Shown here in pieces: positions 43,217 through 53,768 of a stretch of 64,000 nt of DNA. The translations under genes were made by a program, and so were the position numbers. How positions within the stretch are numbered: position 1 is the first letter of the stretch; the number at the start of each line of letters is the position of its first letter. Under the pieces are notes generated by a model that was not told the DNA's origin, ran no database searches, and saw only the letters and a program-made list of their open reading frames with translations. Source of the DNA: Luteimonas sp. JM171 (lineage in GTDB: Bacteria > Pseudomonadota > Gammaproteobacteria > Xanthomonadales > Xanthomonadaceae); the NCBI RefSeq assembly GCF_001717465.1, contig NZ_CP017074.1, forward strand, positions 1,640,873-1,704,872, in the 5' to 3' direction.

Positions 43217-43233
43217 CCCGCATGTGGTGCGGG
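43217..43233 (+). other. hairpin in the pckG leader
   Basis: CCCGCA-TGTGG-TGCGGG forms a perfect 6-bp stem 26 bp upstream of the pckG start. There is no T tract. It may be a leader structure or chance. Confidence 0.3.
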
Positions 43234-43259
43234 CTTTGGCAGCATTTTCCGGAGGCAAG

Positions 43260-45065
43260 ATGAATGCAGTTCCCGCAGCACGGGCCACGCCCGTGAACGG
43301 CAGCGCGCTGGCGGCGCTGAACGACTGGGTGGCCGAAGTGGCCGAACTCACCCGTCCAGACGCGATCCACTGGTGCGACGGCAGCGACGCCGAATACCAG
43401 CGGTTGCTGGAGGCGATGCAGGCCGACGGAACGCTCCTGCCGCTGAACCAGGACACGCATCCGGGCTGCTGGCTGCATCGCTCCGATCCGCAAGACGTTG
43501 CGCGGGTGGAGCACTTGACCTTCGTGTGCACGTCCGCCCGCGAGGATGCCGGGCCGAACAACCACTGGATGGCGCCCGACGAAGCGCACGCGAAGATCGA
43601 CGGCCTGTTCGACGGCTGCATGCGCGGACGCACCCTCTACGTGGTGCCGTATTGCATGGGGCCGATCGATTCCCCGCTGGCCCGCTGCGGCGTTGAAATC
43701 ACCGACTCCCCGTATGTGGTCGCCAACATGCGGATCATGACCCGCATGGGCGCCGACGCGCTTGCGCGCATCGAGCGCGAGGGGGCGCAGGGCAAGCCGT
43801 TCGTCAAGGGCCTGCACTCCACCGGCGAACTTGATCCAGACCGCCGCTTCATCATGCACTTCCCCGAGGAGCTGGCCATCAAGTCCTACGGATCCGGCTA
43901 CGGCGGCAACGCCCTGCTGGGGAAGAAGTGCCACGCCCTGCGCATCGCCTCCTGGCAGGCGCGCCAGGAAGGCTGGCTGGCCGAGCACATGCTGATCGTG
44001 GGCGTGGAAAACCCGCAGGGCGAGACGCACTACATCGCCGCCGCCTTTCCCAGCGCCTGCGGCAAGACCAACCTCGCCATGCTCATCCCGCCCGAAGGCT
44101 ACCGCGCAAAAGGCTGGAAGGTGTGGACCGTGGGAGACGACATCGCCTGGATGCACCGCGGCGAAGACGGGCGGCTGTGGGCGATCAACCCGGAAGCGGG
44201 GTTCTTCGGCGTTGCCCCGGGCACGTCGGCCAAATCCAATCCCAATGCGCTGGCCTCCATCCAGCGCGACACGATCTTCACCAACGTCGCGGTGACCGCG
44301 GACAACCAGCCCTGGTGGGAAGGCCTGGATGACCGCGTGCCGGCGATCGATTGGCAGGGGCGCCCATATGACCCGGCCAATGGCCCGGCCGCGCACCCCA
44401 ATGCGCGATTCACCGTCAGTGCCAGCCAGTGCCCGACGTATTCACCGCACGCCGAGGACGCGCAGGGTGTTCCAATCAGCGCCATCGTCTTCGGCGGCCG
44501 GCGTGCCTCCCTGGTGCCGCTGGTGTTCCAGGCCCGTGACTGGGCGCATGGCGTGCTGGTGGGCGCGGCCATGGCCTCGGAGACCACGGCCGCGGCCACC
44601 GGGAAGGTGGGCGTGGTCCGCCGCGACCCGATGGCGATGAAGCCGTTCTGCGGATACCACTTCGGCGACTACTTCAGCCACTGGCTCTCGTTCGACCAGC
44701 CCGGTTCGAAGCTGCCGGGCATCTTCCACGTCAACTGGTTCCGCAAGGACGAGGAAGGCCGCTTCATGTGGCCGGGCTTTGGCGACAACATGCGCGTGCT
44801 GGAGTGGATCATCGGCCGGGTCACGGGCGAAGCCGGCGCGGTGGAGAGCGCGATCGGGCTGGTGCCCGAAGCATCGTCTCTGAACCGGGATGGCCTGGAC
44901 CTGGACGGGCAGACCCTGCGCAGCCTGCTGCAGGTGGATCCCGCCGGCTGGCGCCACGAATACAAGGCGATCGCGGAGTTCATCGGCGAATTCGGGGAGC
45001 GCCTGCCCGGGAAACTCAAAGCGGAAGCGGATCGGACCGCCCGGGCACTCGACGCCCTCGCCTGA
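43260..45065 (+). CDS. pckG: phosphoenolpyruvate carboxykinase (GTP)
   Basis: Converts oxaloacetate and GTP to phosphoenolpyruvate, GDP and CO2, the entry step of gluconeogenesis, 601 residues. The start follows a GGAGG site. Family marks are FVCTSAREDAGPNNHWM, GRTLYVVPYCMGPIDSPLA, the substrate loop KSYGSGYGGNALLGKKC, the P-loop FPSACGKTNLAML (about residues 263-275), and GDDIAWM for metal binding. The later PEAGFFGVAPGTS is the kinase-2 region, and VNWFRKDEEGRFMWPGFGDNMRVLEWI is typical of GTP-type enzymes. With class I aldolase and gap-pgk it gives a gluconeogenic route. Confidence 0.98.
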   Translation: MNAVPAARATPVNGSALAALNDWVAEVAELTRPDAIHWCDGSDAEYQRLLEAMQADGTLLPLNQDTHPGCWLHRSDPQDVARVEHLTFVCTSAREDAGPNNHWMAPDEAHAKIDGLFDGCMRGRTLYVVPYCMGPIDSPLARCGVEITDSPYVVANMRIMTRMGADALARIEREGAQGKPFVKGLHSTGELDPDRRFIMHFPEELAIKSYGSGYGGNALLGKKCHALRIASWQARQEGWLAEHMLIVGVENPQGETHYIAAAFPSACGKTNLAMLIPPEGYRAKGWKVWTVGDDIAWMHRGEDGRLWAINPEAGFFGVAPGTSAKSNPNALASIQRDTIFTNVAVTADNQPWWEGLDDRVPAIDWQGRPYDPANGPAAHPNARFTVSASQCPTYSPHAEDAQGVPISAIVFGGRRASLVPLVFQARDWAHGVLVGAAMASETTAAATGKVGVVRRDPMAMKPFCGYHFGDYFSHWLSFDQPGSKLPGIFHVNWFRKDEEGRFMWPGFGDNMRVLEWIIGRVTGEAGAVESAIGLVPEASSLNRDGLDLDGQTLRSLLQVDPAGWRHEYKAIAEFIGEFGERLPGKLKAEADRTARALDALA

Positions 45066-45126: not shown

Positions 45127-47220
45127 TCAACGGGAACCGGCGGGGCTTTGGCGCTTCCGCACCCAGAACACGTACATTCCTGAAAACAGTTCGGGTCGCT
45201 GCCGCTCGTGCGCATCCCAGGCGGCAAGATCACGCAGCGCTTCCGGCTGCGGGTGCTGGCGCCTGAAGCCCGCCACTTCCCGGGCGCCCAGTTCAAATCC
45301 GGCGAACTCCAGCGAGAAGCGGTCCAGCAAGGCCTGGATGCCAGGCAAGGTGAAGCGGTGCTCCTGCACGTGGAAGAGCAGGTCCCGGCACTCGCTCATC
45401 GAATAGAAATCCGTGAATTTCGCCACTTCCCCGCGCGGATCGGACAAGCCGAAGGCTGCCAGCTCTCCGCGCAGGCGCCGGATGTCCTCCGCAACCGGCT
45501 GGTAGCCGCGCTCTGCGATGTACTGCCTGGCGGCGACCACGGATTGCCGCGCGCGTTCGCTGTAGAGCGCAAGGCGCATGAGGCCACCCTCGCGCAGCAG
45601 GCCGGCCAGGACGGACAGTCCCTGCGCCGGATCGGCGAGATGGTGCAGGACGCCGGTCGACTCGATCAGGTCGAAGCTGCGTCCAACCGACCCGAGTTCG
45701 AGGATGTCCGCCTGGGCAAATTCAATGCCCTGCGTCCCCAGCGCCTGCGCCATGCGCTTGGCATAGGCGAGGCTGGACAGGCTCAGGTCCACGGCCAGCA
45801 GCTCCAGGCCTTCGATGCGCTGGACCATGTCGATGGGATGTTGGCCCGTGCCGCAGCCGGCATTGAGCGCCTCGATCCCACCCCGGGAGGCCGTTGGCAG
45901 CTTATGGGGGAGGGGTGCCGCAAGGCGGGATGCGAGGAAGGCCGGCAGGTCCGTCCGCACCGTGTCGCGCGGCAGCTTGCTCCAGCGCGGATAGGGATTC
46001 TGCTCGTACTGCTTGCGGACCTCGACCGAAACGCTGTCCCGGATGGGGGTGATGGCGGGGATGGTGCCGCGCAGTTCCTGTTCGGCCCAGGGCTCGGCGA
46101 CCTGTTGCTGGATCAGGCGATGCAGGTGCGGCGGCCAGTCCTTTCCAAGCAGCCGGTCGGCGCTTCCAATGGTGTGTAGCGGCACGTAACAGGCAACTGC
46201 GGCAAGCCAGGATGCCGGCACCGCCTCTCCGCCGGCAAGCGCCCGCGATACGCGCGACGCAAGCTCCTCCATGGTGTCGCGCTCGCCCTGCGGTTCGGCA
46301 TACACGTACTCGTTGAGGAAGCACTGCATGGCCAGCGCGCAGTGCAGGACTTCACTGTAGGAAGCCGCCGGTTGGGGAGCGGGCTGGGCCAGCGCCTGTT
46401 GCAGCAGGGAAGTCCGGAGGCGGACCAGCCCCTGTTCAAGCCGTGGATCCGTCACCACCGCGTTGCACAGCAGGGCGACGGGCAGGTCGACCTGTCGTGC
46501 CGGGTCGTTCGAGGCCACGCCAAGGTAGGCCTGGGCGAGTGGGGCGATGGACTGTGGCCGTGCCCAGGGGCGCTCCAGGGCGGTGGCCAGCAATGCCTCA
46601 TAGCCAGGGTCGGCCGCAGGAGGCACGAACTCCGCTTCAATCGCTGCGTTGATGAAACCCACTCCCGCAGGCTCGTGGTCCGGGTCCAGTTGCAGCGCGT
46701 GCCGGTAATCCTCCATCGCCCGGGTCGGCTCGCCCATCACCTCCCATGTGCGGGCGCGGTTGGTCAGGATGCCCGGATTGTCCGCTTCAATGCCCAGTGC
46801 AAGTCCGAAACTGGCAAGCGCGTCGGCATGGCGGCCGAGCTCATGCAGCAGCACGCCGCGGTTGTTCAGCAGGCCCGCATCGCGGGGGCGCTGGGAAAGC
46901 TGCCGCTCAAGCAGCTGCAGGCGCGCAGCGGGTTCCAGCGCCGCCTGCCGGCAGGCGGCCAGGTGTTCGCTGGCATCCGGATGCCCCGGTTCCAGTTCCA
47001 GTGCGCGCTGGCAATATTCCAGGGCCTCCTCGGCCCGGCCCTGGGCGATCAGCACGGCACTGAGGTTCACCAACAGCGAGATGCGGTCGGGAATCAGCTC
47101 CAGCGCCTGGCGGTAGAGCTTTTCGGCCGCTTCCAGCCGCTGCCGGCCGTGGTGCTCCAGCGCCTGCTCGAAAAGCATGCGCGCCCGTTCCATTGGATCC
47201 ATGTAACCAACCTCGTTCAT
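45127..47220 (-). CDS. TPR-repeat class I SAM-dependent methyltransferase
   Basis: Fusion protein of 697 residues. The first 200 residues hold TPR repeats (LYRQALELIPDRISLLVNLS, EYCQRALELEPGHPDASEHL, NRGVLLHELGRHADALASFG). A helical linker follows, with QYEQNPYPRW at about residues 404-413. The Rossmann methyltransferase occupies about 445-650, motif I being ALNAGCGTGQHP (451-462), VDLSLSSLAYA the acidic strand-2 loop, and SFDLIESTGVLHHL the strand-4 motif. The target is unknown; TPRs usually bind a protein or peptide. The ATG overlaps the sulfotransferase stop (ATGA), so the pair is translated together and the start at 47220 is secure. Confidence 0.9.
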   Translation of the reverse strand: MNEVGYMDPMERARMLFEQALEHHGRQRLEAAEKLYRQALELIPDRISLLVNLSAVLIAQGRAEEALEYCQRALELEPGHPDASEHLAACRQAALEPAARLQLLERQLSQRPRDAGLLNNRGVLLHELGRHADALASFGLALGIEADNPGILTNRARTWEVMGEPTRAMEDYRHALQLDPDHEPAGVGFINAAIEAEFVPPAADPGYEALLATALERPWARPQSIAPLAQAYLGVASNDPARQVDLPVALLCNAVVTDPRLEQGLVRLRTSLLQQALAQPAPQPAASYSEVLHCALAMQCFLNEYVYAEPQGERDTMEELASRVSRALAGGEAVPASWLAAVACYVPLHTIGSADRLLGKDWPPHLHRLIQQQVAEPWAEQELRGTIPAITPIRDSVSVEVRKQYEQNPYPRWSKLPRDTVRTDLPAFLASRLAAPLPHKLPTASRGGIEALNAGCGTGQHPIDMVQRIEGLELLAVDLSLSSLAYAKRMAQALGTQGIEFAQADILELGSVGRSFDLIESTGVLHHLADPAQGLSVLAGLLREGGLMRLALYSERARQSVVAARQYIAERGYQPVAEDIRRLRGELAAFGLSDPRGEVAKFTDFYSMSECRDLLFHVQEHRFTLPGIQALLDRFSLEFAGFELGAREVAGFRRQHPQPEALRDLAAWDAHERQRPELFSGMYVFWVRKRQSPAGSR

Positions 47221-48824
47221 TGCACGGCAATGCCGGCGTCGGACAACAGCTCGCGCAGGGGCCCGAGGTGGGCTTCGTAGTGCTTCCACCTCTGCAGCGC
47301 GTCCCGGTACACCGGACGCCTGACCTGGGCAGCGCTTGCCGTGGAGACCGGCGTGGTGTTGTGTTCAAAGCGGAGGCAGGACCCGTCCCACGGCAGACCG
47401 CAGAAATCCAGCAGGCCCCGGGTCACCGCTTCCTGGTCTTCCACCAGTGCTTCGTACCCGACCTCAAGGATCCGGCCGGGAATCACCCGCTTCCAGTGCG
47501 CCATCAACCTGTCGAACAGGATGTAGTAGCGGCCGGTGTCGAGCAGGTCGTACGAGTAATCAAACCACGGCGATTCGGGTCCGAACAGCACGCGGAAATT
47601 GCCCAGGCAGGTGTCCAGCGGATTGCGGCGTAGCAGCACCAGTCGCGCGTTTGGAAACGCGTGCGCGATGAAACCCGCGTAGAGGAAGTTGTGGGGAAGC
47701 TTGTCGATGAACCGTGGCAGCTGGCCCGTCAATGGCCGGGTACTGGACAGATAGACTTCACCCAGGCGCTCCCAGTCCACCCCCGCCAGGTCCAGGTTGC
47801 GCAGCGGGCGGTCGTCGACGCCGTTGAAGGCGCCTTGCGCCACCACGTCGTTGAGCGCCGCGGGAAAGTTGAACAGCTCGCCGGCCGACTGCACCTGCGG
47901 ATGGCTGGAGAGGATCCGGTCCACCAGCGTGGTGCCCGAGCGGGGCATGCCGAAGATGAAGATGGGCTCGTCCGAGCCATGTCCGGCCGGGGCGGGATCA
48001 AGTGGTCCGGGAAACAGGTCCATGAGCGCCTGGAACAGCCTGCCGTCACGCGCGCTGTCGTAACGGGTCAGCCGGCGCGGCCCGGCCTTGCCGGTGCGCA
48101 TGTGCTCGAACGCCGCCGCATGATCGCCGAGGTCCTCGTGTTCCTTGGCCAGTGCCATGTGCAGGTACGCGGAGGCCGTTGGCTTGCCCTGCGCGGCCGG
48201 GACCAGCGATTGCAGCCGGGGGATGTGGTTGCGCGACGGCGTCTGCCTGCGCAGCTGCGCGAGCGAGTGGTGCGCGCGCCAGTGCATCGGCGCCAGGCCG
48301 ATGCACGCTTCGAACTCTTCCTCGGCGCCATCCGCATCGCCGTGGTGGGCAAGGGCGGTGGCGAGGTTGTAGCGGAAGCCGGCGTTGTCCGGGGCGAGCC
48401 GGACGGCTTCCCGGAACGCATCCATGGCCTGCGTCAGCAGTCCACAGCGGTAGTACACCTCGCCGATCGTATCCAGGACCAGCGGATCGTCCCCGGCCAG
48501 GCGACGGGTCCGCTCAAGCTCCGCGGCCGCCGCTCCCAGTCGGATGGCCGAGGCGAGCGCGCGCGCGTGGTGCACGCCATACGCCACGTTTGCAGGGTCC
48601 ATGGCCGCCGCGTGCGCGAGGTGCCCGATAGCGGCCTGGGGCTGGTGAAGCCCAGTCAGGGCCACGCCCGCCAGGAAGTGGCCATGGGCGAGATCGGGCT
48701 GGGCCTCGATCGCCCGGAGGGCGAAATCATGGGCCTCATTCCATCTGGCCGCCCGGGCGGCGCTGGCGCTGGCGTCCAGCAGGGAAGGCAGGTGCTGCTT
48801 CATCGGCGACGCAGTATCGCCCAT
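47217..48824 (-). CDS. TPR-repeat sulfotransferase
   Basis: 535 residues. The N-terminal third has about five TPR-like repeats (for example VLDTIGEVYYRCGLLTQAMD, YNLATALAHHGDADGAEEEF). The sulfotransferase domain starts near residue 285: FGMPRSGTTLVDRILSSHPQ (291-310) is the 5'-phosphosulfate loop, GELFNF (315-320) puts Glu316 where tyrosylprotein sulfotransferases have their catalytic Glu, and RRNPLDTCLGNFR (399-411) is the 3'-phosphate loop. PAPS should be the donor. The acceptor is unknown; TPRs suggest a protein. The start at 48824 has a GGAAG site. It overlaps the methyltransferase start by 4 bp and lies 75 bp after the TonB receptor stop, separated from it by an intrinsic terminator. 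Confidence 0.92.
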   Translation of the reverse strand: MGDTASPMKQHLPSLLDASASAARAARWNEAHDFALRAIEAQPDLAHGHFLAGVALTGLHQPQAAIGHLAHAAAMDPANVAYGVHHARALASAIRLGAAAAELERTRRLAGDDPLVLDTIGEVYYRCGLLTQAMDAFREAVRLAPDNAGFRYNLATALAHHGDADGAEEEFEACIGLAPMHWRAHHSLAQLRRQTPSRNHIPRLQSLVPAAQGKPTASAYLHMALAKEHEDLGDHAAAFEHMRTGKAGPRRLTRYDSARDGRLFQALMDLFPGPLDPAPAGHGSDEPIFIFGMPRSGTTLVDRILSSHPQVQSAGELFNFPAALNDVVAQGAFNGVDDRPLRNLDLAGVDWERLGEVYLSSTRPLTGQLPRFIDKLPHNFLYAGFIAHAFPNARLVLLRRNPLDTCLGNFRVLFGPESPWFDYSYDLLDTGRYYILFDRLMAHWKRVIPGRILEVGYEALVEDQEAVTRGLLDFCGLPWDGSCLRFEHNTTPVSTASAAQVRRPVYRDALQRWKHYEAHLGPLRELLSDAGIAVQ

Positions 48825-48841
48825 CGACGCTTCCAACGCAC

Positions 48842-48872
48842 AAAAAACTACGGCCCCGTGAGGGGCCGTAGT
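48842..48872 (-). terminator. intrinsic terminator after the TonB-dependent receptor
   Basis: On the minus strand a perfect 10-11 bp stem (CTACGGCCCC/GGGGCCGTAG, GTGA-type loop) is followed by TTTTTT (complement of 48842-48847). It sits 27 bp after the receptor stop. The sulfotransferase and methyltransferase would need read-through or their own promoter. Confidence 0.9.
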
Positions 48873-48898
48873 AAACAAGCACGAATGCCTGCGGACGA

Positions 48899-51736
<2,838 letters not shown>

Positions 51737-51757
51737 CTCTCTCTCCAAGTGAGTCTT

Positions 51758-51775
51758 GGGAAATTCCCATGGGAA
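51758..51775 (-). promoter_or_regulatory. three-half-site palindrome in the receptor leader
   Basis: GGGAA-A-TTCCC-AT-GGGAA contains two overlapping dyads; TTCCCATGGGAA (51764-51775) is a perfect 12-bp palindrome. It lies 21-40 bp upstream of the receptor ATG, downstream of the proposed -10 box, so it could be an operator or a leader structure. Confidence 0.4.
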
Positions 51776-51824
51776 CCCGCCGCTGGCGACAATGCTGACG
51801 CCAAATTCGGCAAGGCCGAGGCCG

Positions 51825-51853
51825 ATACTAGCCCCCTTGCGAGAGAAATTAAA
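51825..51853 (-). promoter_or_regulatory. possible promoter of the TonB-dependent receptor
   Basis: On the minus strand TAGTAT (51830 to 51825) follows TTTAAT (51853 to 51848) at 17 bp. The -10 is plausible, the -35 weak. Confidence 0.35.
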
Positions 51854-51907
51854 GTGTCGTTAACAAACCGTCCCGGTTGCGGTAAACCGGCGGGAAAACA
51901 GCAGGAA

Positions 51908-52762
51908 TCAGAGGTCCTGCTCGTAGCGGACGTAGGGGATGGTGCCCTCGTCCTCGCCATTCTCGCCGCGTGGTGAGAAGGGGTTCTTGCCCCGGGTGAC
52001 GACGTTTTCGGCGCCCACCGTGAGCTGCCCGCTCCAGGGGGTGCGCCAGGTCAGGCCCAGCCCGACGCTGTCGAAACGGCCCTGGCCCGGGGTCTCGGTG
52101 ACCTGGCCGACGATGCTGGCGCCAAAGTTGCCGTAGCCGCCGCCCAGTTCGAGGCTGCGGCTGTCCCAGCGGTCCGCCATGCCGGCCGGTGCCTGGGCGT
52201 AGGGGATCAGGCGGGCCTTGGCCACGGTGCCTGCAATCGAGACGTAGCCCTGGTCACTGATGTTGCGCTGGGCGAACACCGTGAGGTCGTTGCCGTCCAC
52301 CTGGCCGGCGGTGCCAGCCGCCCCCGGGGTCAGCCACGCCGGCAGGTTGCCCTGGGTTTCGCCGATGGTCACGCCGACCCGGTTTTCACCATGATTGAAC
52401 GCCGCCGTGGCGGTGCCGCGCTGGGCGGCAGGCGCATCCCCGCCATCCAGGGAAGCGAGCATGCAGTTGTTGGCCAGATTGCCCAGGGCCGCAGCCAGGC
52501 CGCCCTGGTGGTTGCAGAGCAGGGCCAGCGAATCACCGGTTTCCAGGCCAAAGCGGGTATCGAGCGAGCTGCCGCCAAAGCGCAGGCGGGCGCCGGGGCG
52601 GGGGTCGTTCTCGGTGGGCTCAAGGACCAGCAGCGCTTCGATCTGGCCGCTGTTGTTCCAGACCGGCAGGACGGCCTGGTCGCGTTCCTGCGCATGCGCA
52701 CCCGCCGCTGCGCCCAGGGCGAGCAGGGCGGGAAACACGAGCTTGGCCATGCGCAGCGACAT
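51908..52762 (-). CDS. exported protein with TonB-receptor-like C-terminus (putative receptor partner)
   Basis: 284 residues with signal peptide (MSLRMAKLVFPALLALGAAAGAHAQ). The mature protein has beta-rich segments PVWNNSGQIEALLVLEP, RPGARLRFGGSSLDTRFGL, VGVTIGETQGNLPAW, ELGGGYGNFGASIVGQVTE and VGLGLTWRTPWSGQLTVGAEN, and ends PYVRYEQDL. The last part resembles the end of TonB receptors (compare RWNAPWNATISVGANNV in the neighbour). I recall a similar Lysobacterales family next to TonB receptors, but it is not characterised. Likely an outer-membrane or surface partner of the receptor, 171 bp upstream of it on the same strand. Confidence 0.65.
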   Translation of the reverse strand: MSLRMAKLVFPALLALGAAAGAHAQERDQAVLPVWNNSGQIEALLVLEPTENDPRPGARLRFGGSSLDTRFGLETGDSLALLCNHQGGLAAALGNLANNCMLASLDGGDAPAAQRGTATAAFNHGENRVGVTIGETQGNLPAWLTPGAAGTAGQVDGNDLTVFAQRNISDQGYVSIAGTVAKARLIPYAQAPAGMADRWDSRSLELGGGYGNFGASIVGQVTETPGQGRFDSVGLGLTWRTPWSGQLTVGAENVVTRGKNPFSPRGENGEDEGTIPYVRYEQDL

Positions 52763-52862: not shown

Positions 52863-53768
52863 CTATTGCAGACCTGGCGGAGCCTCCATTGGAGCCTGCC
52901 TCGTGGTGAAGAGTGCGTCAATATCGTCCTGCCGGAAGTGATACGCCTGTCCGCAGAACTCGCAGCGCACGGTGGCCTGCCCGTCGATCACGGCGGCATC
53001 GGCCTCTTCGCGGCCCAGTGCAGTGAGCACGTCGGCCACCCGCTGGCGCGAGCAGGAGCATCCAAACCTCAGTTCGCGTCCCCCCATGGCCTCGGGCGAT
53101 TCCTCGTGGAACAGCCTGTGGAGCAGGGTGTCGGCGTCCAGGCCGAGCAGCTCGGCCGGGGTGAGGGTGTCGAACAGCGTCGAGGCGCGGTTCCAGCCAT
53201 CGGCATCGCCGTCGCTGCCCGGCAGCTGCTGCAGCATGAGGCCGGCGGCGGCATCGTCATCCGCGGCGAGCAGGATCCGGGTCGGGAGCTGCTCGGAGCG
53301 CAGGAAGTAGTCCTCGAACGCGCCGGAGAGCGATTCGGACGCCATCTCCACCAGGCCCTGGTAACGCACCGGCTCGCGCTGGCCGTGGGCGGGATTCTCG
53401 ATCGTGATGGCCAGGGTGGCGCCCTTGCCGGCCTGGCGCAGGTCGGCGGGAACTGAGTCCGTACCCTCTGCCAGGCGGACGATCCCGCGCAGCGTGCCCT
53501 TGGCGGTGCATTCGGCGAACAGCGTGCGCAGTGCGCCGTCGCTGCGCAGGTGGATGGACAGGCGGCCGTCCACCTTCACGTGGGCGGTGAACAGCGCGGA
53601 GGCGGCGGCCGCCTCCCCGAGCAGGATGGCTGCCTGCTGGGGCAGTTCGTCCACGCGGGAACGGATCTGGGCCCAGGTATCCCCCAGGTGCACCCGCACG
53701 CCGCGCACGGCGGCCTGTGGCAGGAGGAAGCGGTCGAGGCGGTCGGAATCAGGTTGGGTTGGGCTCAT
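52863..53768 (-). CDS. hslO: Hsp33 redox-regulated chaperone
   Basis: Holdase chaperone switched on by oxidation, 301 residues. The substrate-binding domain contains [20 protein letters not shown] and [26 protein letters not shown]. The zinc redox switch has the usual four cysteines in [11 protein letters not shown] (CxC) and [10 protein letters not shown] (CxxC). It protects proteins under oxidative stress. The long upstream frame is a shadow; [18 protein letters not shown] is the family-type start. Divergent from mtgA. Confidence 0.97.

Follow-up and report, generated by a model that had tools for sequence, protein, structure and literature searches.

A putative receptor-exchange slot in Luteimonas and its family, and the enzymes that may modify its receptor

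Why should the gene for an outer-membrane receptor be followed by genes for a sulfotransferase and a methyltransferase that both carry arrays of tetratricopeptide repeats (TPRs)? This is the question posed by a locus of Luteimonas sp. JM171, which lies in a 64,000-nucleotide stretch (contig NZ_CP017074.1, positions 1,640,873 to 1,704,872) that was analysed as a whole and that we call the window; the genome itself is a single 2.99 Mb contig. On the minus strand the genes run hslO (encoding the Hsp33 chaperone), XOO1806 (a small exported protein), the TonB-dependent receptor (TBDR), the TPR-sulfotransferase (ST) and the TPR-methyltransferase (MT), and there follows on the plus strand a gene that we take, from its sequence rather than from a family search, to encode phosphoenolpyruvate carboxykinase (PEPCK). 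On balance we favour the answer that hslO-XOO1806 and PEPCK enclose a family-wide receptor-exchange slot, of which this locus is one allele, and that the slot holds cassettes of a receptor and of enzymes that act on it prior to export, the receptor being the substrate that we infer.

How widespread is the arrangement? Stretches of 4-20 kb behind XOO1806 were taken from 51 other genomes of the genus and from 41 of the 194 family genomes with XOO1806, which gave 92 slots, and their genes were predicted with an open reading frame (ORF) script and identified by phmmer hits of at least 25 bits, so that fragments are counted. XOO1806 is a core gene, there whatever the slot cargo: it has one match in each of the 52 genus genomes and is found in 194 of 198 family genomes. 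All 51 other genus slots have an Hsp33 match adjoining XOO1806 and contain TBDR sequence, which comes directly behind XOO1806 in 50 of them; in the slot of G214 (genomes are cited here by our own handles) an ST stands between the two. PEPCK was reached in 24 of the 51 genus stretches and 26 of the 41 family stretches, with 27 and 15 respectively falling short of it, and three genus slots (G227, G205 and G226) end at contig ends. In the wider family, 32 of the 41 slots have a receptor that matches the profile of the window type, and the other nine hold barrel receptors of another type, all with an ST (PF25183 in 8/9 and PF00593 in 8/9, Pfam having been run on one long ORF from each). A receptor is present in every examined slot that is not cut by a contig end. 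As side observations, the nine atypical receptors, for example those at L228 5580-8588, L232 7091-10210, L246 5222-8263 and L257 6979-9999, combine CarboxypepD_reg with OMP_b-brl_4 or are other barrel receptors, lie in the opposite orientation and have at least one ST, and those of the combined type are presumably what is called Oar-like; the slot of G097 is apparently split over two contigs (L075, L270), C33 with XOO1806-TBDR-ST and C27 with TBDR-small protein-2OG-AspH-PEPCK.

Is the receptor in fact exchanged? Comparison shows that it is, and that the downstream genes are replaced along with the receptor or with just the portion behind its plug. Within the genus, the first slot receptor is 26%-62% identical to the window receptor (87% over the sole 45 residues left in G205), as against 58-84% for Hsp33, 53-87% for XOO1806 and, where it was found, 75-82% for PEPCK. 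Over the 153 pairs formed by 18 genomes, the slot receptor has a median identity of 42%, as against 62% for Hsp33, 60% for XOO1806 and 62% for a TBDR paralogue that lies elsewhere in the genome and serves as a control. Indeed, slot receptors are less than 60% identical in 19 of the 30 close pairs, that is, pairs in which XOO1806 is at least 90% and Hsp33 at least 80% identical. The sister genome G227 agrees with the window at 98% in the control TBDR and 87% in XOO1806, but at only 44% in the slot receptor, over the 314 residues (1-314 of the query) that its contig holds. G203 and G216 are 98% identical in Hsp33, 99% in XOO1806 and 92% in the control paralogue, but only 53% in their slot receptors, and the slot of G203 has an ST where that of G216 has none. 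Likewise, slot receptors are 28% identical in G206 and G208, where the control paralogue is 99% identical, and 30% identical in G202 and G228. The edges of the exchanged segments can be placed: G203 and G216 show 96-97% nucleotide identity on both sides and differ from about receptor codon 190, roughly where the plug ends, to a point within the 3' end of PEPCK, and the breakpoint falls near the same codon in G229/G231, near codon 51 in the window and G227, just upstream of the receptor start in G202/G228, and at the XOO1806 stop in both G206/G208 and G194/G224.

What comes with the receptor? Comparison shows a limited repertoire of cargo enzymes, often fused to TPRs, with known relatives that modify proteins. 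Pfam, run on 20 chosen ORFs of which some had no match or were flank genes, recognised Sulfotransfer_3, 2OG-FeII_Oxy_5 with or without TPRs, Asp_Arg_Hydrox (AspH) with or without TPRs, TPRs joined to GT41 (like O-GlcNAc transferase, OGT), stand-alone methyltransferases and, in the slot of G199 (L182 11467-13065), a protein-lysine methyltransferase (PKMT) with both PF10119 and PF21782. Such enzymes occur in 28 of the 51 genus slots (27 with ORFs of at least 200 aa only), in 24 arrangements, three cut slots aside, and in 35 of the 41 family slots (34 with the same restriction); the genus tallies are ST 16, 2-oxoglutarate (2OG) oxygenase 17, AspH 13, methyltransferase 6, GT41 4, PKMT 1 and ST-like 1. 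Seen from the whole genome, and with the window counted in, the slot holds 15 of the 37 AspH, 26 of the 42 2OG and 19 of the 60 ST matches of the genus, where even placement in 3.5 Mb would give 0.16, 0.18 and 0.26, the slot being counted here as the 15 kb behind XOO1806, or about 0.4% of the genome. A gene for a 345-aa protein (L174 6138-7175), with no Pfam match at 1e-5 and a stretch that to the eye is like a sulfotransferase P-loop, recurs next to or near an ST in nine of the 41 family slots and one of the 51 genus slots.

Do particular receptors keep particular enzymes? The linkage between them exceeds chance. On a tree of 98 slot receptors (FastTree, with a long-branch warning), the next gene switches state 41 times, where each of 100 label shuffles needs at least 66 switches, and among the 48 receptors with an enzyme next to them the kind of enzyme changes 11 times, against at least 23. 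In the clade of the window receptor, an ST comes next in the window, G097, G203, G232 and G158, and no ST stands beside the receptor in G223, G201, G239 and G231; for two of these, G223 and G201, a search of the entire genome at 1e-30 gives no ST match. The sets also travel, for G204, G215 and G240 have a second site on the chromosome (L267 702-10633, L268 4142-14998 and L269 3568-13645) where a receptor lies beside ST, 2OG, ST and AspH. Identity between this receptor and those in the slots of G233 and G028 is 68-70%, and for the ST and 2OG copies the best matches are in the cassette of one or other of these two genomes, the enzymes compared being all four in G204, the first ST and the 2OG in G240 and the first ST in G215; the second-site AspH of G204 best matches the slot AspH of G213, G237 and others, at about 60%.

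What kind of enzymes are the two in the window? The ST is the easier to place, since the nearest solved relatives of its catalytic domain are tyrosylprotein sulfotransferases (TPSTs; 8w5z at 9.5e-12, 3ap1 at 4.5e-10), a class to which human TPST2 and RaxST of Xanthomonas belong. Its PRSGTT loop, which would bind 3'-phosphoadenosine 5'-phosphosulfate (PAPS), aligns with that of TPST, and two of its residues, the Glu in AGEL and the Lys in DKLP, fall opposite the second Glu in GEE and the Lys in NKDP of TPST, presumably E99 and K158 of human TPST2. The window ST differs in having a TPR array: TPST is a Golgi enzyme without one, and RaxST, which acts on a secreted peptide, is not TPR-fused. This ST is the sole match in the window genome both to PF00685 and to its own sequence. 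The first-pass annotation had advised looking for PAPS supply genes and for a precursor peptide; no PAPS supply gene is among the named genes of the locus, two matches to adenosine 5'-phosphosulfate (APS) kinase lie elsewhere in the genome, and no precursor was seen in the locus, where there is no room for one from TBDR through ST and MT to PEPCK and where the 171-nucleotide gap before the TBDR was not searched for ORFs below 60 aa.

The MT needs more careful wording. Its catalytic domain is nearest to protein-lysine methyltransferases, namely Rv2067c and rickettsial PKMT1/2, and has the catalytic fold of PKMT1/2, and its TPR array matches that of OGT. MethyTransf_Reg (PF10119) and PKMT_2nd (PF21782) are not among the 20 Pfam families matching it at 1e-3, and so, compared with PKMT1/2 and with KmtA of Acinetobacter, the window MT carries an N-terminal TPR array and lacks a match to these two domains; it may work like a PKMT, but we do not class it as one. 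PKMTs that methylate outer-membrane proteins are a precedent; among the substrates named for them are OmpB, OmpA, ScaI, a porin and the adhesin AtaA, none of which is a TBDR (PMC11784438; PMC10739865).

How fixed is the association of MT with the rest? The MT occurs in six of the 52 genus genomes and lies in the slot only in the window genome; the copies of G178, G194, G204 and G224 follow amtB and an amidase gene that overlaps MT in the same way, and that of G222 precedes zwf. We considered a conserved four-gene pathway and rejected it for MT, the five other genus copies lying off the slot. Thus, of the neighbourhood conservation that the first-pass annotation proposed to look for, the receptor-ST linkage is borne out and the fixed four-gene set is not; the same annotation would have put the association down to chance if receptor and enzymes proved unlinked in other genomes, and unlinked they are for MT, though not for ST. 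MT was probably added to a pre-existing receptor-ST cassette. Orthologues of 59-76% identity come from Luteimonas sp. A277 (59%) and from metagenomes, among the matches listed (120 of 577); our alignment of MT (A1) holds 39 of 50 sequences and that of XOO1806 (A2) 56 of 93. The TPR-MT enzyme class also clusters beyond the receptor slot. Among 40 named MT-homologue loci of other bacteria, mostly proteobacteria, ten (L110, L114, L115, L116, L118, L120, L121, L137, L142 and L147) have a further enzyme of these kinds nearby (ST, GT41, AspH, methyltransferase or an extra copy), or eleven with a 28-bit match at L127.

How, then, might the cassettes work? The ST, the MT and their kin would act in the cytoplasm on the receptor encoded next to them, the TPR array holding the unfolded receptor chain, so that in the window the ST would sulfate tyrosines and the MT methylate lysines of the receptor before its export. 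Each exchange would then alter barrel sequence and surface chemistry at once, and the benefit may be escape from phages, bacteriocins or ligand mimics. A protein substrate is the best reading because both enzymes have TPR arrays, as the first-pass annotation said and Pfam bears out, and because their nearest solved catalytic relatives act on proteins. The working analogy is with OGT and SPINDLY (TPR-GT41), in which protein modification is guided by TPRs: the array of OGT is like that of MT, and TPR-GT41 is itself cargo in four genus slots. OGT acts on nuclear and cytosolic proteins, and its catalytic chemistry differs from that of the window enzymes. We would go further only tentatively, in that a dedicated slot may change the barrel and the covalent chemistry of one receptor at once, by means of cassettes with cognate TPR-guided enzymes for tyrosine sulfation, lysine methylation, hydroxylation of Asp/Asn and other residues, and O-glycosylation; this fuller version we hold to fall somewhat short of an even chance.

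Several points weigh against a modified receptor. Receptors occur without enzymes: ten of the 51 genus slots have a receptor and PEPCK and none of these enzymes, seven of them without any other gene in between. In several genus genomes the nearest STs are at a gumN-mutL site with a TBDR several genes away (by Pfam in G215 and G240, and from the same gene order in the others). A receptor was found near two of the 40 MT-homologue loci mentioned above, one of them weakly, which is a lower bound, since the receptor profile misses other receptor types such as the TonB barrel that Pfam finds about 7 kb from MT in G194. Co-transfer by linkage alone would also yield receptor-enzyme pairing, and the slot matches are related by descent, so that the enrichment counts are not independent events. 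At the level of residues, five receptors of the window clade with an ST showed no excess of tyrosine differences over four without (19 versus 27 columns, with 1 and 3 tyrosines), these groups not being clean clades and the window receptor being a long branch, and counts of lysine, tyrosine and acidic-tyrosine are alike in 13 ST-followed receptors and 84 others. The first-pass suggestion of a polypeptide substrate, with the receptor as one option, is thus sustained by the TPR arrays and the protein-acting relatives and finds no signal in these tyrosine and lysine tests. That the receptor is modified is something we infer.

Could the enzymes serve something else? They might modify a secreted peptide or protein ligand, encoded elsewhere, that the receptor then recognises or takes up. 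The TPR arrays and nearest solved structures point to polypeptide substrates generally and so suit this idea too, and it can call on small exported proteins with a common C....TGSR.....C motif in seven of the 92 slots (G219, G199, G213, G028, G162, G233 and G012), which are a possible ligand or substrate. We nevertheless think it unlikely, because a receptor is the only partner shared by all examined slots that are not cut by a contig end, and because the window locus showed no small protein of this kind, within the limits of the search given above. As for these proteins themselves, they were located at L185 3484-3774, L178 9740-10087, L179 7281-7616, L182 6321-6803 and 6922-7425, and L169 8979-9485 and 8207-8692, are present in two copies in three slots (G219, G199 and G012), and have a VTGSR core that resembles the N-terminal VTGSRI of slot receptors.

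A less flattering explanation is that the slot is a recombination hot spot in which ST and MT are passengers with unrelated substrates, their adjacency having no functional meaning. The solitary slot copy of MT, with the other genus copies beside unrelated genes, is what one would expect of a passenger, and queries for insertion sequence (IS) transposases have matches in five of the 92 slots, with an ISL3 transposase found by Pfam in G220. A random hot spot, however, would not gather a single functional class, as 26 of 42 2OG and 15 of 37 AspH matches in about 0.4% of the genome would require, and the receptor-enzyme sets are together at the second site too, so that we regard this account as distinctly improbable. 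Least probable to us, and indeed very unlikely, is that the enzymes act on a small molecule or a surface glycan imported or recognised via the receptor. TBDRs do import nutrients, and small-molecule sulfotransferases and methyltransferases are common, but for both catalytic domains the closest relatives modify proteins, and the slot also houses AspH, GT41 and enzymes of the PKMT type.

The layout of the window locus, as collected below, fits what the first-pass annotation described: Pfam and NCBIfam matches, together with the coordinates, confirm its four genes (XOO1806, TBDR, ST and MT), their single strand, order and place.

Features of the window locus and its flanks, in window coordinates
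Feature	Position	Strand	Evidence and role
hslO / Hsp33 chaperone	52863..53768	-	PF01430 8.4e-66; left (upstream) core flank of slot
XOO1806-family small exported protein	51908..52762	-	NF052276 385.5 bits, cut-off 280; left slot edge
TBDR, swapped slot allele	48899..51736	-	Plug PF07715 1.1e-20; barrel PF00593 9.8e-32
Intrinsic terminator-like hairpin and T run, 3' of TBDR stop	48847..48872	-	Terminator scan
TPR-sulfotransferase (ST), 535 aa	47217..48824	-	Sulfotransfer_3 PF13469 5e-49, with TPRs
TPR-methyltransferase (MT), 697 aa	45127..47220	-	Methyltransf_31 2.5e-15, with TPRs; OGT-like TPR array
PEPCK (phosphoenolpyruvate carboxykinase)	43224..45065	+	Right core flank; convergent with MT, 61 nt apart

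Translational coupling had also been proposed, and it holds for ST and MT, where the TGA stop of the one and the ATG start of the other overlap as ATGA, but not for TBDR and ST, which are 74 nucleotides apart with a terminator-like hairpin between them. That spacer, with an 11-pair stem followed by T5, has the strongest terminator-like site of the scanned region, in which five sites were found against a mean of 5.0 in shuffled sequence. A hairpin of -21 to -29 kcal/mol with a T-rich tail follows the first TBDR in 13 of 13 other slots, which were hand-picked from the 92 and had no shuffled control. ST and MT accordingly form a coupled unit set off by a terminator-like site and do not merely prolong the receptor message. 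Less of each enzyme than of the receptor is probably produced, and the ATGA junction suggests a working pair.

The XOO1806 protein at the left edge, whose signal peptide was judged by eye, may be a shortened relative of the TBDR barrel, to go by its sequence. Its model, NF052276, also weakly matches TBDR residues 893-947 at the C-terminal end of the receptor (E 2.7e-4), the like regions being 51908-52090 (XOO1806) and 48908-49072 (TBDR) on the minus strand of the window, and its predicted structure is poor (pLDDT 58), too poor for a fold search.

What would all this mean? Each part has known kin, in exchangeable TBDR loci, outer-membrane PKMTs, TPSTs and OGT. A parallel for the slot itself is offered by the loci of the pyoverdine receptor FpvA, where TBDR alleles are likewise replaced at a fixed site with linked genes; the linked cargo there is siderophore synthesis, whereas that of the slot is rotating enzymes that resemble protein modifiers. 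In the literature that we searched (titles and abstract openings, with subscription papers and preprints outside), no account was found of a receptor slot with rotating protein-modifying cargo. TPR-STs, TPR-2OG-oxygenases, TPR-AspH and TPR-methyltransferases recur in proteobacteria, and the same search, which did not cover each class, found no assigned substrate for these TPR-modifier classes. Through the slot, these enzymes are linked as a single class with a surface receptor that can be replaced, which points to a substrate that can be tested. If our favoured reading is true, outer-membrane receptors carry eukaryote-like modifications that differ from one receptor allele to the next, which would bear on phage and bacteriocin specificity and on the evolution of receptor genes; on the fuller version set out above, post-translational diversification of receptors would be a general tactic of a whole bacterial family.

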